Made by a program: the position numbers and the translations under genes
The notes under the pieces: generated by a model
Database searches by the model: none
What the model was told of the DNA's origin: nothing
Seen by the model: the letters and a program-made list of their open reading frames with translations, nothing else
Shown here: positions 41,158 through 53,589 of the stretch, piece by piece
Numbering within the stretch: the stretch's first letter is position 1
Layout of the letters: each line of letters opens with the position of its first letter
Assembly: GCF_000526315.1 (NCBI RefSeq)
Contig: NZ_JAFV01000001.1
Coordinates: 3,536,501-3,600,500, forward strand
Reading direction: 5' to 3'
Source of the DNA: Methylopila sp. 73B
Lineage (GTDB): Bacteria > Pseudomonadota > Alphaproteobacteria > Rhizobiales > Methylopilaceae
DNA: 64,000 bases

Positions 41158-41234
41158 GGTCCCGTAGCTCAGCTGGACAGAGCGACGGTTTCCTAAACCG
41201 TAGGTCGGAGGTTCGAGCCCTCCCGGGATCGCCA
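41158..41234 (+). tRNA. tRNA-Arg (anticodon CCT)
   Basis: A 77-nt cloverleaf with acceptor GGTCCCG/CGGGATC (one G-U pair), D-arm TAGCTCAGCTGGACAGAGC, anticodon stem ACGGT/ACCGT around TTCCTAA (CCT at 41192-41194), T-loop TTCGAGC, and encoded CCA at 41232-41234. It reads the rare AGG codon. Confidence 0.96.
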
Positions 41235-41266: not shown

Positions 41267-41860
41267 TCAGAGACGCCCGAACATCCGCCTGAGGGTCCCG
41301 TCGCGCCAGAGCAGCGCGTGCGTCAGCGCCATGCCGACATGGCCCGCGATCAGCGCCAGCAGCGCCCAGGACAGCGGCTCGTGCAGCGCGTCCGGCGCCG
41401 CGATCAGCCAGGGCTCCTCGCGGCCGGTGGCGGGAATGAGCGTGACCCCGCCGATCTCCCAGCCCTTGCCCTTGCCGTAGATGCGCACGAGCGCGAGCGC
41501 CGGCACGATGATCATCAGCCCGTGCAGCGCGAGGTGGCTGAGCCGGGCGAGGCGGCCGAGCGCGCCGGTCTCCAGCGCCGGCTGGCGGCGGAGCTGGCTC
41601 AGGCGCCAGAGCGACCGCGGCACGGCGATCGCGAGCACCGCGAGGCCGACATAGCCGTGGGGGCCGAAGCGGGCGATCCCGTTCAGCCATGGCGTCTCGC
41701 CGAAGATCTTGTAGAGCGCGACGATCGCGAACTGCCACAGCACGAGCGCGGCCAGCGTCCCGTGGAACAGCCGGGTGACGAGCCCGTAGCGGCGTGGCGT
41801 GTCCAGCGCGACGCCGTCCGGCCGCCCTGCGGCGGCGCTCTCCTGCGTTTGGGCGCTCAT
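41267..41860 (-). CDS. Cytochrome b561-type membrane protein
   Basis: A 197-residue, four-helix b-type cytochrome of the bacterial cytochrome b561/b6-N family. Heme-ligand histidines are visible in LVTRLFHGTLAALVLW, SHLALHGLMIIVPAL and LIAGHVGMALTHALL. Such proteins usually move electrons from quinol to a periplasmic acceptor. The start overlaps the transglutaminase stop (ATGA), so it is the last gene of the ATP-grasp/transglutaminase operon. The role in that setting is unknown. Confidence 0.83.
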   Translation of the reverse strand: MSAQTQESAAAGRPDGVALDTPRRYGLVTRLFHGTLAALVLWQFAIVALYKIFGETPWLNGIARFGPHGYVGLAVLAIAVPRSLWRLSQLRRQPALETGALGRLARLSHLALHGLMIIVPALALVRIYGKGKGWEIGGVTLIPATGREEPWLIAAPDALHEPLSWALLALIAGHVGMALTHALLWRDGTLRRMFGRL

Positions 41861-42735
41861 GCCTTGACGGGAACGACGTCCACGCTGTGGCGCGTCTTCT
41901 GGGGGCCGGCGGTGATCAGGACGCCGTCGATGGGGGCGACGTCGGAGTAGTCCCGTCCGACCGCGGCCACGATGTGGTCGTCGAGGGTGACCATGGCGTT
42001 GGTGGGATCGAACCCCATCCAGCCGATCTCCTCGCCCAGCCAGACGTCGACCCAGGCGTGCATCGCGTCGGCGCCCTCCAGCCGCGGGCGGCCCTTGGGC
42101 GGCTCGGTCCGCAGGAAGCCGCTGACGTAGGCCGCGGGAATCCCGATCCCCCGGAGGCTCGCGATCATCACATGCGCGAAGTCCTGGCACACGCCCTCGC
42201 GGCGGGCGAAGGCCTCCTCCGCCGGGGTGTCGACCGTGGTCGCGCCGGGCGCGTATTTGAAATCGGCCTTGATGCGCTTGGAGAAGGCGAGCAGCGCCTC
42301 GCCGATCGGCGCGTCGTCGTCCATCGCCTCTTCGCCATAGGCGGTGAAGGTCTCGCCCAGCCGCACGAGACGGCTCGGCCCGAGGAAGTGCATCGCTCCG
42401 CCCGGGCCGGGATCGCGCAGGCGGGCCGCGGTTGCGCGGACGGCGACGACCGTCGGCGTCTTCGCGAGATCGGGGGCCGCGCGCGCGACCGTCACCCGGG
42501 TCTTCATGGTGACGGAGAGCGCCGCGTGCGGCGGCAGCAGCAGGAGGTGGTCGAGCGCGTTGCCGAAGAAATCGCGTTCCGCGGTCTGCTCGTCCGGCCG
42601 GGGCACGATCGTCACCTGCGTCGCGCCGACCTCCTGGCCGCGTCCCGCCCGCGGCCGCACCCGCAGGATGTGGCGCGCGTCCTTCACTTCCGAGGGGTAG
42701 TCGTAGCCGATCTTGAGGACGAGGTCGTAGATCAT
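41857..42735 (-). CDS. Transglutaminase-like cysteine protease family protein
   Basis: A 292-residue protein with an N-terminal bacterial transglutaminase N domain (beta) and a papain-like transglutaminase core. The Cys-His-Asp triad is visible as REGVCQDFAHVM, DAMHAWVDVWL and GWMGFDPTN. Bacterial members act as peptidases or amide-forming enzymes, and their substrates are rarely known. It overlaps both neighbours by four bases, which implies strict co-expression with the ATP-grasp/alpha-E protein and the b-cytochrome. Confidence 0.9.
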   Translation of the reverse strand: MIYDLVLKIGYDYPSEVKDARHILRVRPRAGRGQEVGATQVTIVPRPDEQTAERDFFGNALDHLLLLPPHAALSVTMKTRVTVARAAPDLAKTPTVVAVRATAARLRDPGPGGAMHFLGPSRLVRLGETFTAYGEEAMDDDAPIGEALLAFSKRIKADFKYAPGATTVDTPAEEAFARREGVCQDFAHVMIASLRGIGIPAAYVSGFLRTEPPKGRPRLEGADAMHAWVDVWLGEEIGWMGFDPTNAMVTLDDHIVAAVGRDYSDVAPIDGVLITAGPQKTRHSVDVVPVKA

Positions 42736-45245
42736 TCGCTTTCCAACCGTTCGGCCAGCGCCGGCCCGGCGCCGAAGTACCGCCGCGACAGCAGATCGGA
42801 CAGCCCGGCCAGATCGTCCGCGATCCGCTTCAGGAAGGCCTCGTCGATCTCGGAGGGGTGGCCCGTGGTGAGCCGCGACTGCAGCCGCACCGCGCGCCGC
42901 GACAGCATGTCCAGCGTCTCGCCGTGCCTGCGGCCGGGGAGCGCGTCGAGGATCGTCTTGAAGCCGTTGACCTGGAAGGCCACGGACCGCGGGTTGAGCG
43001 GGTCAAGCACGGAGAGGTCGAGCGCTGTCTCGCGGGTGAGGTCCACCGAATAGCGCCTGCGGTAGGTGACGCGGCTGTCGGTGAACTCCAGCAGCGCCTC
43101 CAGCCCGCCTTCGAGCGTCTTTTCGCCCGCAAGCGCGGCGGCGACCAGCGCGGTGACCCGCCCGCGCTCGATCAGCCGGCCGGACTGCAGGAAGCGCCAG
43201 GCGGTGTGCTGGTACATGCTCTCGTGCACGAGACCCGCGAAGCCGGACAGCCGGGTGAGCACGCCGCTCGCAAGCGCCGCGACGTCGCCGGGCTCCTCGC
43301 GGAAGGCCTCGATCATGTCGACGATCTCGCCCAGCACCCGCCAGCCGTCCGGCGAGAACCGGTCGCGGATGCGCGAGGCGGTGGCGAAAGCCTGGCCGGC
43401 GAGGTCGAGCAGCCCCTCGGTCGGATCGCCCACCGCGGCGTCGACGCCGATCGCCGCAAGCCGCTCGCCGACCACCTGCTCCAGCGCGCCCACGCGCTCG
43501 CCTTCCGCGAGCCGGGCGGCGTGCAGGCGCACCAGCCGGGTCGCGGCCTCGGCGCGCTCGACGTAGCGTCCGAGCCAGTAGAGGTTGTCGGCGGCGCGCG
43601 CGGGCGGCGCGCTCGGCAGCCGGCGGGCGAAGCCGCCGCCGGGCTTCTCCAGCAGTGAGACCTGGCGCTCCACATGGTCGCCCGGCACCCAGACGTCCAC
43701 CGAATGGCCGCCGGACTGCATCGAGACGGCGTTGGGATCGGTCGAGCTCGAGGTGCGCGCGAAGCCGCCGGGCATCACCCGCCAGCCGTCGGCGCCGCGC
43801 GCCAGGAACACCCGCATCGTGACCGGCCGCGCGACCAGCTTGCCGTCCACGAACACCGGCGCTGTCGAGAGCCCGACGATCTCCTGCGCCACCACGTCGA
43901 GACCGTTCGTCTCCAGCATGTCGGCGAAGCCCTCTGAGTCCGCGGCGCGGATGCCGAGGTCGAGCGGCCTGCGGCGCTCGCCGGCCTCCGCGGACTGCGG
44001 AAAGGCGTGGGCGAGCGACAGGCGGTCGCGGTTCTTGGCGACGAAGGCGCGCTCCTTCTCCTGCCCGCACCACCAGGTGGCGACCGTCGGCAGCTTCAGC
44101 TCCTCGCCCAGCAACGCCTTGGCGAGCGCCGGCTGGAAGGCGAGCAGCGCCCGGGTCTCGAGGATGCCGGAGCCGAGCGCGTTGACGAGCTCAACCCCGC
44201 CGGCGCGGACCGCGCGGGCGAGGCCCGGCGTGCCGATGCGCGAGCGCGCGTAAAGCTCCAGCGGGTCGGCGAAGTCCGAATCGAGCCGGCGCCACAGCAC
44301 GCGGATCGGCTTCGCGCCGTCGACGGTGCGCACCTCCACCGATGAGCCGTGCACCGCGAGGTCGCCGCCTTCGAGCAGCAGCAGGCCGAGGTAGCGGGCG
44401 AGATAGGCGTGCTCGAAGTAGGTCTCGTTGTGGGGCCCGGGCGAGAGCAGGCCGGCGCGCACGCCCTTGCCGTCGTCGAGCGAATAGAGCGTCTCGCGGA
44501 AGTCGCGGAAGAAGCGCGCGAGACGCTGGATCTTGAGGTCGCGGATCAGGTCGGGGAACGCGCGGGAGGTGGCGACGCGGTTCTCCAGCGCGAAGCCGGC
44601 GCCGGAGGCCGCCTGGGTGCGGTCGCCCAGCACCCACCACTGGCCGTCCGGCCCGCGGCCGAGGTCGACGGCGATGAACCGGATGAGCGGCTGGCCGGAC
44701 TTGCCCTGGTCGGCCACGGGCCGCAGGAATTCGGGATTGCGGCCGAGGATCGCCGGCGGCAGCACCCCGTCGCGCACCAGCGCTCGCTCGCCGTAGAGGT
44801 CGCCGAGCAGCTTCTCGAGGAAGTCCGCGCGCTGGACCAGCCCCGCCTCGAGCGTCGCCCATTCCTCCCGGCTGATGATCAGCGGCGGGTGCGCCAGCGG
44901 CCAGGATCGCGGCCGGTCGCTCTGATCGACGGCGCCGTAGACGCGGTAGAACACGCCCGCCTCGCGCAGATACTGCGCGGCGGTGGCGAAGCGGCGGCCG
45001 CGCTCGGCCTCGTCCATGCGGGCGAGCGAGGCGATCATCTCGCGGTAATGCGGCCGCACCTGCCCGTCGGCCGTCATCATCTCGTCGTGGGTTCCGACGG
45101 GAGGACGATAGCCGGCGAGGAGCGCGCCTTTGGCCGCGCGTTCGGGCGCGGCCGGGGTCAGGACTTTCGCGGTGGGCACGTCACCAGGCTCTTCGGGCGG
45201 AGGGGGCGACTCGTCGATCGTCGCCGCGCGACGATGGCGCCTCAT
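42732..45245 (-). CDS. Circularly permuted ATP-grasp plus alpha-E domain protein
   Basis: An 837-residue fusion. Residues about 55-510 are the circularly permuted type 2 ATP-grasp domain (DUF404/407; landmarks GVFYRVYG, SREEWATLEAGL, QRADFLEKLLGDLYGE and GLLSPGPHNETYFEHAYLAR). The C-terminal third is the alpha-E domain (DUF403; ADNLYWLGRYVERAEAATRL). ATP-grasp enzymes of this class are predicted to form peptide or isopeptide bonds. In many genomes the two parts are separate genes. It follows the DUF2126 gene by 30 bp and overlaps the transglutaminase gene. Confidence 0.92.
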   Translation of the reverse strand: MRRHRRAATIDESPPPPEEPGDVPTAKVLTPAAPERAAKGALLAGYRPPVGTHDEMMTADGQVRPHYREMIASLARMDEAERGRRFATAAQYLREAGVFYRVYGAVDQSDRPRSWPLAHPPLIISREEWATLEAGLVQRADFLEKLLGDLYGERALVRDGVLPPAILGRNPEFLRPVADQGKSGQPLIRFIAVDLGRGPDGQWWVLGDRTQAASGAGFALENRVATSRAFPDLIRDLKIQRLARFFRDFRETLYSLDDGKGVRAGLLSPGPHNETYFEHAYLARYLGLLLLEGGDLAVHGSSVEVRTVDGAKPIRVLWRRLDSDFADPLELYARSRIGTPGLARAVRAGGVELVNALGSGILETRALLAFQPALAKALLGEELKLPTVATWWCGQEKERAFVAKNRDRLSLAHAFPQSAEAGERRRPLDLGIRAADSEGFADMLETNGLDVVAQEIVGLSTAPVFVDGKLVARPVTMRVFLARGADGWRVMPGGFARTSSSTDPNAVSMQSGGHSVDVWVPGDHVERQVSLLEKPGGGFARRLPSAPPARAADNLYWLGRYVERAEAATRLVRLHAARLAEGERVGALEQVVGERLAAIGVDAAVGDPTEGLLDLAGQAFATASRIRDRFSPDGWRVLGEIVDMIEAFREEPGDVAALASGVLTRLSGFAGLVHESMYQHTAWRFLQSGRLIERGRVTALVAAALAGEKTLEGGLEALLEFTDSRVTYRRRYSVDLTRETALDLSVLDPLNPRSVAFQVNGFKTILDALPGRRHGETLDMLSRRAVRLQSRLTTGHPSEIDEAFLKRIADDLAGLSDLLSRRYFGAGPALAERLESE

Positions 45246-45275
45246 GCCGCGTTTGGCGATGGACAGATCGGCGCG

Positions 45276-48200
45276 TCACTCTCCAAGCCAGGCGGGACGA
45301 CGCAGGTCGAGCGTATGCGGGAAGGACGGGTTCGGGGTCTCGCGCGTCGGCTCGAACGATCCGCCGGTGTGGCCGATGTCCTCGAAGCGCGCGAGCCGGC
45401 GGGCCTCGGCCTCGTAGGAGTTCACGGGGAAGGTGTCGTAGTTCCGGCCGCCGGGGTGGGCGACGTGGTAGACGCAGCCGCCGAGCGAACGCTTCGACCA
45501 CTTGTCGTAGATGTCGAAGGTGAGCGGCGCGTGCACCGGGATGGTCGGGTGCAGGCCGGAAGCCGGCTGCCACGCCTTGAAGCGCACGCCAGCGACCTGC
45601 TCGCCGGAGACGCGCGTCGGCGTCAGCGGCACGGGGCGCCCGTTGCAGGTGACGACATGGTGGGCCGGGTCGGCGTTGGTCAGCTTCACCTGCAGGCGCT
45701 CGACGGAGGAGTCCACGAAGCGGACGGTGCCGCCGATCGCGCCGGTCTCGCCCATGACGTGCCAGGGCTCCAGCGCCTGGCGCAGCTCGAGCGAGACGCC
45801 CTCGCGCTCGATCCGCCCGCAGAACGGGAAGCGGAACTCGGCCTGGGCCTCGAACCACTCGGCGCGCAGCGGGTAGCCGGCGCGCTTCAGCTCGTCGATC
45901 ACGTCGAGGAAGTCTTCCCAGACGAAGGCCGGCAGCATGAAGCGGTCGGCCAGGCGGGCGCCCCAGCGCACGAAGCCGCCCTGCGCCGGCTCCTTCCAGA
46001 ACTTCGCGATCATCGCGCGGATCAGCAGCTGCTGGGCGAGGCTCATGCGCGCGTCCGGCGGCATCTCGAAGCCGCGGAACTCGACGAGCCCCAGCCGGCC
46101 GGTCGGGCCGTCCGGCGAGTACAGCTTGTCGATGCAGATCTCGGAGCGGTGGGTGTTGCCGGTGACGTCGATCAGCAGGTTGCGGAACAGGCGGTCGACC
46201 AGCCACGGCGGCGGAGCCAGGCCTTCGCCCGGCGCCGGCACGTTCGCCATCGCGATCTCGAGCTCGTAGAGCTGGTCGTGCCGGGCCTCGTCGATGCGAG
46301 GCGCCTGGCTCGTGGGGCCGATGAACAGGCCCGAGAACAGGTAGCTGAGCGAGGGGTGGCGCTGCCACTGCAGCACGAGCGACTTCAGCAGGTCGGGCCG
46401 GCGCAGGAACGGGCTGTCGAGCGGCGTCGCGCCGCCGACCACCACGTGGTTGCCGCCGCCGGTGCCGACGTGCTTGCCGTCGATCATGAACTTGTCGGCG
46501 CCGAGGCGCGACTGGCGCGCGTCGTCGTAGACCCCGGTGGTGATCGCGACCGCCTCCCGCCATGAGGCGGCGGGGTGGACGTTGACCTCGATCACGCCGG
46601 GATCGGGCGCGACGCGGACCACGTTGACCCGCGGGTCGAACGGCGGCGCGTAGCCTTCGATCTGGACGGGCAGGCCGCTCTCCTCCGCTGTGTCCTCGAT
46701 CGCCGCGAGCAGGTCGAGATAGGCCTCGATCGACTCCATCGGCGGGATGAAGACGCAGAGCTTGCCGTCGCGCGGCTCAACCGAGAGGGCGGTGCGGACG
46801 TAGCCGACGATCTCGTTCTGCATCGTCGCCGGCGCCTGCCAGACGGGCTGGTCCGGCGTCGAGATGCGGCGTTGCTCGTGGCCGAGCGCGATCGTGTCCG
46901 GGTCCGGCAGCGGCTCCATCTCCCGCACCGGATCGGCGGGGAAGAAGTAGGGGAACTCGCTCTTGCTGAGATGGGGCAGGGCGCCCAGCGGCAGGCGGTA
47001 GCCGAGCGCGCTGTCGCCCGGCGACAGGAACAGCTTGCCGCGCCGGGTGCCCCAGCGCTCCGAGACCCAGCGCACCCCCTGCGCCTGCCAGGCCTGGATC
47101 GGCAGCACGAAGCCGGTGGGGTTGTTCAGCCCGCGGTCGAACACGCGGGCGAGGCGCGCGCGCTCCTCCGCGTCCTCGAGCTTCGGGTTCGAGGGGTCGA
47201 CGTTCGCCGGCAACTGCGCCTCGCGCACCAGCCAGTAGGACGGGTCCTCATAGGCGGCCTGGGCGTTGTCGGGCGCGACGCCGAGCCGCTCGGCCACGCC
47301 GCGCGCTAGAACCTCCGCGCCGGCGACGTCGGCCTCCTCGGAGGTCTTCTCGCGGGCGATGAGGTCCGGGTTCTTCCAGATCGGCTTGCCGTCCTTGCGC
47401 CAGTAGAGCGAGAAGGTCCAGCGCGGCAGGGTCTCGCCGGGATACCACTTGCCCTGGCCGTAGTGCAGGAAGCCGCCGGGGGCGAAGCGGTCGCGCAGGC
47501 GGCGGATGAGGTCGTCGGCCAGCGCCCGCTTCTGCGGGCCGGTGGCGTCGGCGTTCCATTCGGCCGACTGGAAGTCGTCGATCGAGACGAAGGTCGGCTC
47601 GCCGCCCATGGTGAGGCGCACGTCGTTGGCGACGAGCTCGGCGTCGACCTTTTCGCCGAGCGCGTCGAGCGCCGCCCAGCTGTCGTCGGAGAAGGGGAAG
47701 GACACCCGCGGCCGCTCGGCGATGCGGTCGACCTTCATCTCGAAGTCGAACTCGACCTCGGCGTAGCTGGCGAGGCCCGAGATCGGGGCCGCGGTGCGGT
47801 AGTGCGGCGTGGCGGCCAGCGGCACATGGCTTTCGCCGGTCAGCAGGCCGGAGGTGGCGTCGAGGCCGATCCAGCCGGCGCCCGGCAGGTAGACCTCGGT
47901 CCAGGCGTGGAGGTCCGTGAAGTCGTGGTCGGTGCCGGCGGGGCCGTCGAGCGAGACCAGGTCGGGCTTCAGCTGAATGAGGTAGCCCGACACGAAGCGG
48001 GCGGCGAAGCCCAGGTGCCGCAGCGTCTGCACCAGCAGCCAGGTGGTGTCGCGGCAGGAGCCGGAGCGCTTGGTCAGCGTCTCCTCCGGCGTCTGCACGC
48101 CGGGCTCCATACGGATGAGATAGGCGGTCTGCTGCTGGAGGACGCGGTTGAGGCCGACCAGGAAATCGACCGTGCGGGTCTCGCTGCGGTCGAGCGTCGC

Positions 48201-48593
48201 GAGGAAGTCCTGAAGCAGCGGTCCGGCCGGCTCGGTCTCGAGATAGGGCGCAAGATCGACGGCGAGCGACTCCTCATAGGCGAAGGGCCACTCCGAGGCG
48301 TAGTCCTCCACGAAGAAGTCGAACGGGTTGTAGACCGTCATGTCGGCCAGCAGGTCGACCTCGATCTTGAACTCGGTCGTCGGCTCCGGGAACACGAAGC
48401 GCGCGAGGTAGTTGCCGAAGGGGTCCTGCTGCCAGTTGATGAAGTGGTTCGCCGGGCTCACCTTCAACGAGAACGACGGGACCTTCGTCCGGGAGTGCGG
48501 GGCTGGGCGCAGCCGGATCACCTGGGGCCCGAGCTGGACGGGACGGTCGTACTTGTAATGCGTGACATGACGCAGGGCGGCTAGGATCGACAT
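45276..48593 (-). CDS. Transglutaminase-like protein with DUF2126 region
   Basis: A 1105-residue protein. The first 300 residues are a transglutaminase N plus core with the triad in [27 protein letters not shown] and [10 protein letters not shown]. The remaining 800 residues are the DUF2126 region (for example [20 protein letters not shown] and [18 protein letters not shown]), which has features of a GCS2/amidoligase-type fold as I recall. I start at ATG 48593 ([10 protein letters not shown]). The frame is open further but reads into the divergent promoter. It heads the four-gene leftward operon. Confidence 0.9.
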
Positions 48594-48796
48594 GTGGCGG
48601 GGGTCGGCGCTCCGGTTGGTTGGGCGTGAGCTTAACCGCCTGCGGCGCCGCAGCAAGGGCCGTTGTCCATTCCCGACAGGGCGGGGCGCCCAGATACCGC
48701 AACAGTAATTTCGCGCAGCACGGAACTGTTTCGCCGCGGCGCGCATTGCAGCGACGACCAATCGTGGCGCGCGGGCGCCAAAAGGATTCGACGACT

Positions 48797-49939
48797 ATGA
48801 AGCTCTTCTCCTGCCCCTCTTGCAGCCACGTGGTGTTCTTCGAGAACGTGGTGTGCGAGCGCTGCAATCACGCGCTCGGCTACGAGCCGGCGTCGAACAC
48901 GATGCTGGCGCTCGAGCCGTTGGACGGCGGGTGGACCGCGGTGGGCGCGAAGTCCGACGATCGCCCGTGGCGCTACTGCGCGAACTACGACCACGGCGTC
49001 TGCAACTGGATGGTCCCGGCCGACCAGGACGAGACCTTCTGCCTCGCCTGCCGCCACAACCTCGTGGTGCCGAACCTGGCCGACGCGACCAATGTGGCGC
49101 TGTGGCAGAAGATGGAGATCGCGAAGCGTCGGCTGTTCTACAGCCTGCTCCGCCTCAGGCTCCCGCTGCAGACCCGCGCCGAGCATCCCGAAGGCCTCGG
49201 GTTCGAGTTCCTGAGCAACGACGACGCCTCCGGGCAGCATGTGCTGACGGGCCATGACGACGGCCTCATCACCATCGCTCTGGCCGAGGCCGACGACGCC
49301 GAGCGCGAAAGCCGCCGCACGGCCATGGGCGAGCCCTACCGCACGCTGCTCGGCCACTTCCGCCACGAGATCGGCCACTGGTACTGGGATCGGCTGGTGC
49401 GCGACGGCGGCGCGCTGGAGGCGTGCCGTTCGGTGTTCGGCGACGACAGCCAGGACTACGCGCAGGCGCTGCAGAACCACTACGCCAACGGCCCGAAGCC
49501 GGGCTGGCAGAACGAGTTCGTCTCGCACTACGCAGCCGCCCACCCTTGGGAGGACTTCGCCGAGACCTGGGCGCACTACCTCCATATCACCGACACGCTC
49601 GACACCGGCCGCTCGTGGGGCTTCCGCGTGGATCCCCGCGTCGACCGCGAGGACCTGCTGACCGCGAAGATCGATTTCGACGTGTTCTCGCCGAACACGA
49701 CGATCGAGGAGATCGTGGAGTCGTGGCTGGCCCTCTCGGGCGCCCTGAACGCGCTGAACCGCTCGATGGGCGCGTTGGACCCCTATCCCTTCGTGCTGTC
49801 GGAGTCGGTCGTCAGCAAGCTGTCGTTCATCCACGAGCTGGTGCACGGCCGCGTCGCTCGCGGCGCGACCGGCTCCGACCTGCCGGAAACGCCGGACATC
49901 GAGCCGGCCCCGACCCCGGACGACCGCCAGGTCGCCTGA
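48797..49939 (+). CDS. Putative zinc-binding metallopeptidase
   Basis: A 380-residue cytosolic protein. The N-terminus has a rubredoxin-like double CxxC zinc ribbon (CPSC, then CERC), followed by a second Cys set (YCANYDHGVCNW and FCLACRHN). The peptidase core holds HEIGHWYW (HExxH) with a downstream glutamate in WEDFAETWAHYL. This family is often encoded beside ATP-grasp/alpha-E/transglutaminase genes, as here, divergently across 203 bp. It may process the product of that system, which is inference. Confidence 0.87.
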   Translation: MKLFSCPSCSHVVFFENVVCERCNHALGYEPASNTMLALEPLDGGWTAVGAKSDDRPWRYCANYDHGVCNWMVPADQDETFCLACRHNLVVPNLADATNVALWQKMEIAKRRLFYSLLRLRLPLQTRAEHPEGLGFEFLSNDDASGQHVLTGHDDGLITIALAEADDAERESRRTAMGEPYRTLLGHFRHEIGHWYWDRLVRDGGALEACRSVFGDDSQDYAQALQNHYANGPKPGWQNEFVSHYAAAHPWEDFAETWAHYLHITDTLDTGRSWGFRVDPRVDREDLLTAKIDFDVFSPNTTIEEIVESWLALSGALNALNRSMGALDPYPFVLSESVVSKLSFIHELVHGRVARGATGSDLPETPDIEPAPTPDDRQVA

Positions 49940-50170: not shown

Positions 50171-50188
50171 GAATGTTTACATACATTC
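50171..50188. promoter_or_regulatory. 18-bp palindromic operator upstream of the acyltransferase fusion
   Basis: GAATGT (50171-50176) and ACATTC (50183-50188) are perfect inverted half-sites around TTACAT. TTGACG at 50148-50153 can act as a -35 element, so the palindrome would cover the -10 and start-site region. A TetR regulator encoded at the end of the same operon is the obvious candidate ligand. Confidence 0.55.
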
Positions 50189-50205
50189 CTTGCAAGAGGC
50201 GTCCC

Positions 50206-53200
50206 ATGCTTCTCTCGCTGCTCCGCACCCGCCGTTTCGCGCCGCTGTTCTGGTGCCAGCTGTTCGCGGCGTTCAACGACAATTTCGTCAAGAACGCGCT
50301 CGCCATCCTGCTGCTGTTCTACGTCGGCGGCGCGGGCGGGCCGATGCTGGTCACGCTCGCCGGCGCGCTGTTCATCCTGCCGTTCTTCCTCGTCTCCGCG
50401 CTCGGCGGCGAGCTCGCGGACCGCTACGACAAGGCGCTGGTCGCCCGGCGCACCAAGCTCGCGGAGATCGTCGTCGCCGCGATCGCGGGCCTCGGCTTCA
50501 TCCTCGCCTCGACTCCCCTGCTGTTCGTCGCGCTGTTCCTAACCGGCGTGCTCTCCGCCCTGTTCGGCCCGGTGAAGTACGGCGTGCTGCCGGACCACCT
50601 GAAGCGCGAGGAGCTGGTCTCCGGCAACGCGCTGATCGAGACCGCGACCTTCCTCGCAATCCTCGCCGGCACGGTTGGCGGCGGGATCATGATCGCGGAG
50701 GCGAGCCCCTGGGCGATCGCCGCGACGACGCTCGCGGTCTCGGTCGCGGCCTACGGCTGCGCCCGGCTGATCCCGCCCACCGGCGAGCGCGCGCCGGATC
50801 TCGCGATCGAGCGCAACGTCTTCAAGAGCACCTTCCGGCTGCTGGGCGAGCTGAAGCGGCAGCCGCGGGCCTGGATCGCGTCAGTCGCGGTCAGCTGGTT
50901 CTGGGCGGTCGGCGCGGTCACGCTCGCGCTGATCCCGCCGCTGGTGAAGGACGTGGTGGGCGGACAGGAGAGCGTCGTCACGCTGTTCCTGGTGTTGTTC
51001 ACGGTCGGCATCGCCGCGGGATCGCTCGTCGCGGCGCGCTTGAGCGGCCGGCGCATCCTGCTCGCGCTGACGCCCGTCGCCGGCGTGCTGATCGGCCTCG
51101 CGGCGCTCGACCTGTCGCTCGCGACCTCCGGCGCGACAGCGGCGGACCTTGGCTGGCTCGCCTTTCTCGAAACCCCGGCGAACTGGCGGATCATGGCCGA
51201 CCTCGTGCTGTTCGCCGCCGCTGGCGGCCTGTTCGTGGTGCCGGCCTTCGCCTTCCTGCAGGCGGAGGCGGGCGAGGAGCGCCGCGCCCGGGTGGTCGCC
51301 GCCAACAACGTGCTGAACTCAGCCTTCATCGTGGCGGCGTCGCTCGTGGTGCTCGGCCTTCAGGCCGCCGGGCTGACGACGCCGGCGATCCTCGCCGCAC
51401 TCGGCGTTGCGAACCTCGTCGCCGCCGTCCTGCTCGGGCGCACGCTGCCCGGCTCGCTGCTGCGCGACGCGGTGCATCTGCTGTTCGGGCTGCTGTTCCG
51501 CGTCGAGGTCCGGGGCATGAAGAACCTCGAGACGGCGGGCCCCAAGGCGGTCATCGCCGTGAACCACACCAGCCTGCTCGACGCGCCCATGGTGATGTCG
51601 CTGCTGACCGACGACCCGGTCTTCGCCATCGACAGCGGCATCGCCACGCGCTGGTGGGTGCGGCCGCTGCTCAAGATGGTCCGCGCCTTCCCGATGGACC
51701 CGACCAAGCCGCTCGCCACCCGCGCGCTGATCAACCTCGTGAAGGAGGGAAACCGGCTGGTGATCTTCCCCGAGGGGCGCATCACCGTCACCGGCTCGCT
51801 GATGAAGGTCTATGACGGCTCGGCGCTGATCGCCGACAAGGCCGAGGCGCCGGTGATCCCGGTGCGGATCGAGGGCCTCGACCGCTCGCCGGCCTCCTAT
51901 CTCACCTCGCGGCAGATCCGGAAGCGGCTGTTCCCCAAGGTGGTCGTGACCATTCTTCCGCCCGTCATGCTGGACGTGGACAAGAGCCTCGTCGGCCGCA
52001 AGCGCCGGCGCGCCGCCGGAGCCGCCCTGACCGACGTGATGGCCAAGACCGCCCTCGACACTACGCCGGCCGACCGCACGCTGACGGAAGCCGTGGTCGC
52101 CGCCGCCCGCTTGGAGGGTTTCGGCCGCCGCGCGGTCGAGGACGCGCTCGGGACGAAGCTCAGCTACCGCAAGCTGCTCGCCGGCGCCGCGGCGCTGGGC
52201 GCCAAGCTCGACGCGCAGACGACGGCGGGGGAGGCGGTCGGCGTGCTGCTGCCGAACACGGCGGGCGTCGCGGTCACACTGCTGGCCCTGTCGCGCTCCG
52301 GCCGCGTGCCGGCGATGCTGAACTACTCCGCCGGCCCGAAGAACCTGGTCTCCGCCTGCGCGGCCGCTGAGGTGAAGCTCGTGCTGACCTCGCGCGCCTT
52401 CATCGAGAAGGGGCGGCTGCAGAAGGAGGAGGCGGCGCTGGGCGAGGCGGCGCGGCTCGTCTATCTCGAGGACGTGCGGTCGACCATCGGCGCGCTCGAC
52501 CGGCTGAAGGGCTTGCTCGCGAGCGGCAAGGCGCCCGCTGGGAAGCCCGGCGCGCCCGCCGCGGTGCTGTTCACCTCGGGCTCCGAGGGGACGCCGAAGG
52601 GCGTCGTCCTGACCCACCGCAACCTGCTCTCGAACGTGGCGCAGGTCGCGGCCAGCATCGACTTCGGCCCGGCCGACACCGTGTTCAACGTGCTTCCGGT
52701 GTTCCACGCCTTCGGGCTCACGGGCGGCCTGCTGCTGCCGCTGGTCTCGGGCGTGCGCACCTATCTCTACCCCTCGCCGCTGCACTACCGGATCGTGCCG
52801 GAGATGGTCTACGCGTCGAACGCGACCGTGCTGTTCGGCACCGACACCTTCCTCGCCGGCTACGCCCGAACCGCCCACCCCTACGACTTCCGCTCGCTGC
52901 GCTTCGTGGTGGCGGGCGCGGAAGCCGTGAAGCCCGAGACCCGCAAGGTCTGGGGCGAGAAGTTCGGCCTGCGCATCCTCGAGGGCTATGGCGTCACCGA
53001 GTGCTCTCCGGTGGTCGCGGTCAACACGCCGATGTTCAACCGCGCCGGCACGGTGGGCCGGCTGCTTCCGGGCGTCGAGCACCGGCTGGAGAGCGTCGAG
53101 GGCGTGACCGAAGGCGGCCGGCTGCACGTGCGCGGGCCGAACGTCATGGCGGGCTACCTCCGCGCCGAGACCCCCGGCGTGCTGGAGGCGCCCGAGGGCG

Positions 53201-53589
53201 GCTGGCACGACACCGGCGACATCGTCGCGATCGACGCCGACGGCTTCGTCGCGATCAAGGGCCGCGCCAAGCGCTTCGCCAAGATCGCAGGCGAGATGGT
53301 CTCGCTCGGCGCGGTCGAGGAGGTCGCGCGCGCGCTCTGGCCGGAGGCGGCCCACGCCGCCGTCACCGCGCCGGACCCGCGCAAGGGCGAGCGGGTGGTG
53401 CTGTTCACGACGCAAGGAGGCGCGGACCGCCGCGCCCTGCAGGCCGCGGTCCGCGAAGCCGGCCTGCCGGACCTGGCGGCGCCGGCCGAGATCCGCGCGC
53501 TCGACAAGCTGCCGCTGCTCGGCTCCGGCAAGACCGACTACGTGGCGGTGAAGGCGCTGGCCGCGGAGCCCGCGGAGGACGCGGCGTGA
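50206..53589 (+). CDS. Acyl-ACP synthetase/phospholipid acyltransferase with MFS domain
   Basis: A 1127-residue three-part fusion. Residues 1 to about 420 are a major-facilitator transporter of the LplT (lysophospholipid) type. Residues about 430-610 are a PlsC acyltransferase with N453-H454-TSLL-D459 (HX4D) and FPEGRITVTGS. The rest is an AMP-binding acyl-ACP/CoA synthetase (LFTSGSEGTPKGVVLTHRN, EGYGVTECSPVV, DTGDIVAIDADG). It should import lysophospholipid and re-acylate it. In E. coli these are lplT and aas. ATG 50206 has AGAGG upstream. An in-frame ATG at 50173 lies inside the operator palindrome and is rejected. The stop overlaps tetR. Confidence 0.92.
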   Translation: MLLSLLRTRRFAPLFWCQLFAAFNDNFVKNALAILLLFYVGGAGGPMLVTLAGALFILPFFLVSALGGELADRYDKALVARRTKLAEIVVAAIAGLGFILASTPLLFVALFLTGVLSALFGPVKYGVLPDHLKREELVSGNALIETATFLAILAGTVGGGIMIAEASPWAIAATTLAVSVAAYGCARLIPPTGERAPDLAIERNVFKSTFRLLGELKRQPRAWIASVAVSWFWAVGAVTLALIPPLVKDVVGGQESVVTLFLVLFTVGIAAGSLVAARLSGRRILLALTPVAGVLIGLAALDLSLATSGATAADLGWLAFLETPANWRIMADLVLFAAAGGLFVVPAFAFLQAEAGEERRARVVAANNVLNSAFIVAASLVVLGLQAAGLTTPAILAALGVANLVAAVLLGRTLPGSLLRDAVHLLFGLLFRVEVRGMKNLETAGPKAVIAVNHTSLLDAPMVMSLLTDDPVFAIDSGIATRWWVRPLLKMVRAFPMDPTKPLATRALINLVKEGNRLVIFPEGRITVTGSLMKVYDGSALIADKAEAPVIPVRIEGLDRSPASYLTSRQIRKRLFPKVVVTILPPVMLDVDKSLVGRKRRRAAGAALTDVMAKTALDTTPADRTLTEAVVAAARLEGFGRRAVEDALGTKLSYRKLLAGAAALGAKLDAQTTAGEAVGVLLPNTAGVAVTLLALSRSGRVPAMLNYSAGPKNLVSACAAAEVKLVLTSRAFIEKGRLQKEEAALGEAARLVYLEDVRSTIGALDRLKGLLASGKAPAGKPGAPAAVLFTSGSEGTPKGVVLTHRNLLSNVAQVAASIDFGPADTVFNVLPVFHAFGLTGGLLLPLVSGVRTYLYPSPLHYRIVPEMVYASNATVLFGTDTFLAGYARTAHPYDFRSLRFVVAGAEAVKPETRKVWGEKFGLRILEGYGVTECSPVVAVNTPMFNRAGTVGRLLPGVEHRLESVEGVTEGGRLHVRGPNVMAGYLRAETPGVLEAPEGGWHDTGDIVAIDADGFVAIKGRAKRFAKIAGEMVSLGAVEEVARALWPEAAHAAVTAPDPRKGERVVLFTTQGGADRRALQAAVREAGLPDLAAPAEIRALDKLPLLGSGKTDYVAVKALAAEPAEDAA

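Follow-up and report, generated by a model that had tools for sequence, protein, structure and literature searches.

Predicted peptide-synthesis or tagging systems that carry the domains discussed here are reportedly described in the 2009 amidoligase survey of Iyer et al. We analysed a gene cluster of this widespread, known type in Methylopila sp. 73B, within a 64,000-nucleotide stretch of contig NZ_JAFV01000001.1 (the window; all coordinates without another label are positions in it). Three genes are central to this cluster and encode, in order, a transglutaminase-like domain joined to DUF2126 (TG-DUF2126), a circularly permuted ATP-grasp domain fused to an alphaE domain (the fusion), and a second transglutaminase-like protein (TG2). 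The new element is the fused ATP-grasp, which by its residues is a maintained pseudoenzyme: none of 119 fused proteins (102 in the main alignment and 17 further ones) has a complete ExN motif or the glycine loop of the stand-alone enzymes.

The Anbu operon contains the same ATP-grasp, alphaE and transglutaminase families, and its circularly permuted ATP-grasp stands alone (available parts of PMC6376114 and PMC5666114). The present locus differs from it in having TG-DUF2126 but no Anbu, and in an ATP-grasp that is joined to alphaE and no longer has its ATP site. In Burkholderia cenocepacia, adjacent genes I35_5080-5083 encode DUF404/407 (ATP-grasp), DUF403 (alphaE) and transglutaminase-like proteins, and the set also includes a large transglutaminase-like protein that we read as TG-DUF2126; these genes belong to the NtrC/sigma54 regulon (available part of PMC5491218). 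There the ATP-grasp and alphaE genes are separate, whereas here they are fused, and no sigma54 site was found upstream. Among solved structures, 3n6x, a putative glutathionylspermidine synthase (Mfla_0391), resembles the ATP-grasp part in family and fold (sequence E = 1e-61). While 3n6x keeps the motifs EDN, VVKE and GSGGYG, the protein of this locus has none of them and adds an alphaE domain. For DUF2126, the best fold matches of a predicted model are the carboxylate-amine ligases YbdK and glutamine synthetase; DUF2126 is larger than these, is fused to a transglutaminase domain, and has no significant sequence similarity to them.

Loss of the ATP site in the fused ATP-grasp

The first hint of site loss came from the alignment with 3n6x. 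Our main alignment comprises 102 fused proteins (that of Methylopila sp. 73B, 34 others from its order and 67 from named loci) and 21 stand-alone ATP-grasps, namely that of the same genome and those of 20 loci chosen from 72 other alphaE-positive genomes; Anbu lies in 17 of the 21 corresponding pieces. Position numbers from E158 to K466 are residues of the stand-alone ATP-grasp. The roles of the motifs follow an ATP-grasp template with the ExN motif and lysines (available part of PMC4431377) and a glutathione synthetase structure paper that assigns Mg ligands, phosphate lysines and the glycine loop (available part of PMC2845819), and their mapping onto alignment columns is our own.

All 21 stand-alone paralogs keep E158-D159-N160, K319, K366-E367, the loop G370-S-G-G-Y-G375 and K466. 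Among the 102 fused proteins, E158 is found in one, N160 in none, K319 in one, K366 in none, E367 in five and K466 in two, and the six loop residues are found in 22, 3, 18, 4, 0 and 39 of them, respectively. A complete ExN motif is present in 0/102 fused proteins versus 21/21 stand-alone ones; the protein of this locus reads GDR at this point, and the sequence replacing the glycine loop is itself variable among the fused proteins. The stand-alone set has 93 invariant polar or glycine positions; at least 90% of fused proteins keep the residue at 36 of these, but at none of the 12 site positions, which were picked after seeing the table (hypergeometric p = 0.0017). Beyond the alignment, 17 further fused proteins sampled across the phylum (16 outside the class) include none with E158 or N160 and none with SGGYG, while the stand-alone copies from the same phylum loci keep EDN in all 13 cases with data at that column.

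Proteins left out of the counts give the same picture at these motifs. The order loci gave 38 fusion matches, 34 of which were counted (frame above 700 amino acids), leaving out L049, L075 (split), L059 and L076. From the 80 named loci 67 were counted; L141 was excluded as a repeat of L051, L168 is cut off, L151, L179, L180 and L205 were left out, and L142, L143, L145, L185, L204, L212 and L217 have no fusion or a stub. The six fusions outside the 102 from L059, L076, L151, L179, L180 and L205 (801-830 amino acids) have neither ExN nor Lys366, nor does that of L049 (617 amino acids), and the cut-off protein of L168 shows GDR.

In a tree of 78 sequences, for which the alphaproteobacterial fusions were reduced to our own and a random 25, the fused proteins form one clade with a support of 1.0 and a long stem. 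The site loss is old. Since 9 of the 17 further fused proteins still have Lys366, ExN and the glycine loop were apparently lost before the lysine. Fused proteins of families f2 and f44 (L071 in genome G069, L073 in G018 and L044 in G099) have D-x-H in place of ExN and a loop of EGTGRPG or EGSGRPG; being less changed at the ATP site, they may be intermediates.

The fused ATP-grasp is a maintained protein under purifying selection and not a decaying gene. Compared with six Methylopila species, the ATP-grasp half has a ratio of nonsynonymous to synonymous substitution rates (dN/dS) of 0.07-0.31, close to the 0.07-0.27 of DUF2126, and 17 positions, such as W203, R284, W392 and G394, vary in stand-alone proteins but never in fused ones. 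An AlphaFold2 model of the fusion, built from an alignment of our own protein with 55 of the 67 named fusions, has a predicted local distance difference test score (pLDDT) of 87.6 and a predicted template modelling score (pTM) of 0.86. Its ATP-grasp part matches 3n6x with a template modelling score of 0.85 normalised by the target (Foldseek E = 4e-27), with glutathione synthetases next.

A preliminary description of this locus, made from its sequence, had proposed an ATP-using ligase in the fused part, and had named a lack of ligase activity as something that would count against its proposal. With the ExN motif, phosphate lysines and glycine loop gone in the 102 aligned homologs, such a lack is likely, and we consider it very probable that the fused ATP-grasp is not a working ligase. 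Its Pfam ATP-grasp match of 410 bits is not evidence of ligase activity. We found no description of a lost ATP site in fused copies in the open-licence literature, which excludes the 2009 survey.

Extent of the conserved gene unit

DUF2126 was found in 41 of 101 genomes searched (our own and 100 relatives), including 13/13 of the genus and 0/5 from other genera of Methylopilaceae. The fusion follows TG-DUF2126 in 38 of the 40 other loci of the order, and TG2 comes next in 37 of the 40. Across the phylum, DUF2126 genes are present in 129 of 397 sampled Pseudomonadota genomes, and the order TG-DUF2126, fusion, TG2 is also seen in many of the 20 loci that were taken from these 129 (19 families; 19 loci outside the class and one inside). 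Because this order recurs in both the order and the phylum, the gene unit is not due to chance. The closest named locus is that of Methylopila sp. Yamaguchi, with a TG-DUF2126 that is 98% identical.

The conserved unit consists of TG-DUF2126, the ATP-grasp-alphaE fusion and TG2, and it ends at TG2, since a comparison of open frames, as distinct from family searches, found no gene downstream of it that all 10 other Methylopila loci share. Some Methylopila species pairs do have one gene in common there. The preliminary description had seen a tight unit of five genes. What stands is a conserved, translationally coupled unit, joined by a zinc peptidase in some lineages; the cytochrome at its end very probably does not belong to it. 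The four-base overlaps said to link three genes are present as two ATGA overlaps, fusion/TG2 (42735/42732) and TG2/cytochrome (41860/41857), and the gap from TG-DUF2126 to the fusion is 30 bp. The ATP-grasp and alphaE parts are fused as claimed, but fusion is the usual state of this paralog. In two relatives TG-DUF2126 is split over two frames (L075 in G007 and L076 in G038), and in G007 the fusion is split as well.

A second alphaE gene, the stand-alone ATP-grasp and Anbu

The genome of Methylopila sp. 73B also carries a complete set of stand-alone ATP-grasp, alphaE, transglutaminase and Anbu genes (G000:C1, about 1150575-1155298; L036 8576-13299), and the motifs of this ATP-grasp are intact. 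Anbu itself is not at the DUF2126 locus, its sole match in the genome lying at G000:C1:1154540-1155295. Counted by eye, as were the phylum-locus motifs, two alphaE genes are present in each of the 41 DUF2126 genomes among the relatives, and 36 of these genomes also have a detectable Anbu. Of the 60 relatives without DUF2126, 32 have alphaE and none has a sure second copy (one has two fragments on different contigs). In the phylum sample, at least two alphaE genes are present in 122 of the 129 DUF2126 genomes, with one in seven and zero in none, compared with at least two in 12 of the 268 genomes without DUF2126.

EDN is present in every stand-alone ATP-grasp that was read from a DUF2126 genome (11 from the order, 13 with data from the phylum). 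Several lineages have the stand-alone pair within the same locus as the DUF2126 cluster. In our best reading, the cluster is an add-on to genomes that carry the stand-alone ATP-grasp/alphaE/transglutaminase set, often with Anbu.

TG-DUF2126 and the transglutaminases

The best conserved part of the cluster is DUF2126. The mean column identity of TG-DUF2126 is 71% and 67% (alignments A2 and A4), and that of the fusion is 44-49%; alignment A1 has 34 rows, our own fusion and 33 of the 34 from the order (L072 was left out). The claim that both transglutaminases keep the Cys-His-Asp triad holds throughout the aligned proteins, in 106/106 for TG2 and 118/118 for the transglutaminase core of TG-DUF2126 (TG1).

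We modelled DUF2126 with AlphaFold2 from an alignment of 54 of the 78 named DUF2126 proteins and our own domain (pLDDT 77, pTM 0.81). The best Foldseek match of this model is YbdK (1r8g; E = 2.6e-3, probability 0.99), and 49 of the 50 matches listed are YbdK-type proteins, glutamine synthetases or close relatives. On this predicted fold, DUF2126 is probably an enzyme of the glutamine-synthetase type, and TG-DUF2126 likely combines a transglutaminase with a carboxylate-amine ligase or amidase. No paper giving the product of DUF2126 was found. That the fused gene's presumed ligase has no ATP site redirects experiments, with TG-DUF2126 and the stand-alone ATP-grasp as the enzymes to assay.

The divergent zinc peptidase

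The divergent zinc peptidase noted in the preliminary description is confirmed, with an intact HExxH motif: H190 and H194 are kept in 25/25 linked homologs and E191 in 24/25. It is a divergent neighbour in 14 of the 40 other order loci (12 Methylopila and two of family f2), or 15/41 with our own locus counted, and lies inside the fetched piece in 11 of 80 named loci, nine times divergently, including Aurantimonas, Mangrovicella, Methylobacterium and Hyphomicrobium. A match over the Pfam cut-off is found in 27 of 41 genomes with DUF2126 versus 5 of 60 without, and outside the genus in 14 of 28 versus the same 5 of 60. Around 16 unlinked zinc-peptidase genes, no other family recurs in more than four loci, if clusters overlapping the peptidase gene are set aside. 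In Mangrovicella and Boseongicola (L143 and L185), TG-DUF2126 lies beside the zinc peptidase, and the fusion and TG2 are absent from the fetched piece; the Aurantimonas piece ends too early to show whether they follow.

The b561-type cytochrome

A membrane redox step had been suggested from the cytochrome coupled to TG2. Three of the 13 Methylopila species have the cytochrome next to the cluster (this one and two of the 40 other order loci). Of the 80 named loci, that of Methylopila sp. Yamaguchi alone has it there, and it is one of those two. Four other Methylopila species have the ortholog (48-53% identity) away from the cluster, and in at least two Methylopila species it abuts an mntP-type manganese efflux gene (L101 5736-6906 and L104 5989-7118). 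A profile scan of 140 loci, with at least one species present twice and some pieces short, found one b561 gene apart from the Methylopila cases, a distinct gene with 28% identity to this cytochrome lying right after TG2 in Hyphomicrobium (L220). We judge this to be at about the level of chance, because our own 4.4-megabase genome has three b561 genes. Surveyed in this way, the cytochrome is not conserved in the cluster and no ortholog of it lies beside the other scanned clusters, so that the redox step is not supported; the cytochrome is very probably a lineage-specific passenger. The preliminary description had named a cytochrome without relation to the cluster in other genomes as evidence against its proposal, and this is what the survey shows. 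At this locus it also lies near a cation efflux gene (41003-40116), with a tRNA-Arg (CCT; 41158-41234, plus strand) between the two.

Promoter and nitrogen regulation

In Pseudomonas putida, expression of Anbu-operon genes is higher with nitrate than with ammonium (available part of PMC8050072) and is also raised under nitrogen limitation (available part of PMC3325844). Upstream of TG-DUF2126 in this genome, a search against a sigma54/NtrC consensus found no convincing site, our own best site being poor. Across 120 loci, scanned over up to 300 bp with coding stretches of each locus as controls, sigma54 sites were not enriched (mean control fraction scoring as high, 0.57), with good-looking sites in a few loci outside the genus, such as L207, L052 and L055. 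On the operon side, our own reading of the intergenic alignment is a sigma70-like pattern. As no sigma54 site was found upstream, a nitrogen link in this genus would be borrowed by analogy from Pseudomonas and Burkholderia, and we hold it to be rather doubtful.

Possible function of the cluster

We propose that this is an amide-bond cluster with TG-DUF2126 as its catalytic core and the fusion as a non-catalytic partner, a reading to which, taken whole, we give about an even chance. The depupylase Dop is an enzyme that breaks a side-chain amide bond. The DUF2126 domain would make such a bond or, as Dop does, break it through a glutamine-synthetase-like active site, and the transglutaminase domain joined to it would transfer or hydrolyse side-chain amide bonds. 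The fusion, no longer using ATP, may have a scaffolding, specificity or regulatory role, presenting the substrate or pairing with its intact paralog, although we hold this partner role only tentatively. TG2 and the zinc peptidase would trim or recycle the product, which by analogy with the nitrogen-limitation link of Pseudomonas and Burkholderia could be a peptide or protein tag that stores or recycles nitrogen. The cytochrome would stand outside the mechanism. Across Pseudomonadota, the Anbu-operon ATP-grasp might have been duplicated long ago, with one copy fusing to alphaE, losing its ATP site and persisting as a dead partner of TG-DUF2126 and the living paralog; this history is somewhat less probable than not, as is its corollary that the active and inactive ligases would together control an amide-linked product. 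The near-fixed pairing of a dead and a live paralog offers a testable route into the role of Anbu-type operons.

Several observations weigh against these proposals. Beside Lys366 in nine of the further fused proteins, E158 is replaced by Asp in 8 of the 102, and the fused proteins keep the acidic D159 as well as two arginines, R148 and R174; because of that lysine and the Asp replacement, some fused members could still bind nucleotide, as far as residues can tell. The Foldseek support for DUF2126 falls short of E = 0.001, a profile comparison (hhalign) of DUF2126 with 18 YbdK-like proteins was not significant (E = 0.07), and no tool mapped its catalytic residues. The fusion is not always needed, since in genome G450, one of the DUF2126 genomes with a single alphaE gene, the fetched piece (L262) has only the stand-alone pair. 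Pairing with a living paralog is also imperfect: seven DUF2126 genomes have a single alphaE gene, 5 of the 41 in the order lack a detectable Anbu, and an intact ATP-grasp beside the second alphaE was read in only 11 of those 41. The co-occurrence counts and p-values ignore shared ancestry. Finally, a pull-down of four Yersinia bercovieri Anbu-operon proteins found no specific complexes (available part of PMC6376114).

The cluster could instead be mainly hydrolytic, with TG1, TG2 and the zinc peptidase acting as peptidases or amidases and DUF2126 running backwards like Dop, so that nitrogen is recycled from tagged or cross-linked proteins. The three hydrolase-type domains at the locus, the recurrent zinc peptidase, the induction of related genes by nitrogen limitation, and the Mangrovicella and Boseongicola pieces, where TG-DUF2126 and the peptidase occur without the fusion and TG2, are all consistent with this. 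However, alphaE genes occur in every DUF2126 genome searched and the stand-alone ATP-grasps that were read look catalytically intact, which suggests a synthetic step somewhere; we regard a mainly hydrolytic cluster as rather unlikely.

Alternatively, the fused ATP-grasp could have rebuilt its nucleotide site in an unusual form and still be an active ligase. The retained predicted ATP-grasp fold, the purifying selection on the domain, the 17 fused-specific invariant positions and the Lys366 kept in 9 of the 17 further fused proteins would fit this. Yet few or none of the 102 aligned proteins have the ExN motif, either phosphate lysine or the glycine loop, and the replaced loop is variable, unlike an active site, making a rebuilt ligase improbable. 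The version in the preliminary description, in which peptide tagging by an active ATP-grasp would be linked to membrane redox chemistry through the b-type cytochrome, is largely refuted and retains only the slightest probability. While the cytochrome is translationally coupled to TG2, its adjacency is repeated in two sister species, and one Hyphomicrobium locus has a different b561 gene after TG2, the profile scan found no other case, the ortholog lies elsewhere in four Methylopila species (in at least two beside the manganese efflux gene), the other Methylopila loci have no downstream gene in common, and the ATP site is lost.

Locus layout and neighbouring genes

All parts named in the preliminary description are present at their positions, as judged from open reading frames and Pfam (Table 1). 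The start of TG-DUF2126 was set at the ATG at 48593, from which relatives align; the start at 48761 in the open reading frame list is judged too early. All Pfam matches are well over the cut-offs: PF09899 (DUF2126) with 1326 bits over its full length (model positions 3-826 of 826), PF14403 with 410, PF04168 with 184, PF01841 with 72 and 57, PF15887 with 348 and PF01292 with 80.

Table 1. Features of the DUF2126 locus of Methylopila sp. 73B, in window coordinates
Feature	Position	Strand	Basis or remark
TG-DUF2126 protein, 1105 amino acids	45276..48593	-	Pfam; N-terminal transglutaminase-like domain and DUF2126 putative amidoligase
Transglutaminase core of TG-DUF2126 (TG1; C180, H229, D245)	47856..48182	-	Pfam, alignment
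DUF2126 domain	45300..47762	-	Pfam; top solved-structure matches YbdK and glutamine synthetases
ATP-grasp-alphaE fusion, 837 amino acids	42732..45245	-	Pfam; AlphaFold2 model
Circularly permuted ATP-grasp domain within the fusion; ATP/Mg site lost	43752..44885	-	Fold match 3n6x; residue losses
G207-D208-R209 of the fusion; Mg-binding E158-D159-N160 (ExN) in stand-alone paralogs	44619..44627	-	Alignment
A412 to A421 of the fusion; K366-E-V-x-G-S-G-G-Y-G (phosphate lysine, glycine loop) in stand-alone paralogs	43983..44012	-	Alignment
R365 of the fusion; invariant K319 in stand-alone paralogs	44151..44153	-	Read as first phosphate lysine by comparison with PMC2845819 (available part)
AlphaE helical domain of the fusion; conserved R560/E563/R564 (ER motif) retained	42774..43604	-	Pfam, alignment
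TG2, second transglutaminase-like protein (C183, H226, D243)	41857..42735	-	Pfam, alignment; last gene of the conserved unit
b561-type cytochrome	41267..41860	-	Pfam; judged a lineage-specific passenger
Zinc-ribbon metallopeptidase (PF10005 and PF15887), motif H190-E191-x-x-H194	48797..49939 (ATG 48797)	+	Divergent from the operon
Divergent promoter region, 203 bp	48594..48796	.	Intergenic alignment; sigma70-like CTTGC / TWAnGnT on operon side

Beyond the zinc peptidase, positions 50173-53589 on the plus strand encode a single protein of 1138 amino acids with MFS transporter, acyltransferase and AMP-binding ligase domains, which we take to resemble a lysophospholipid transporter-acyltransferase-ligase fusion.

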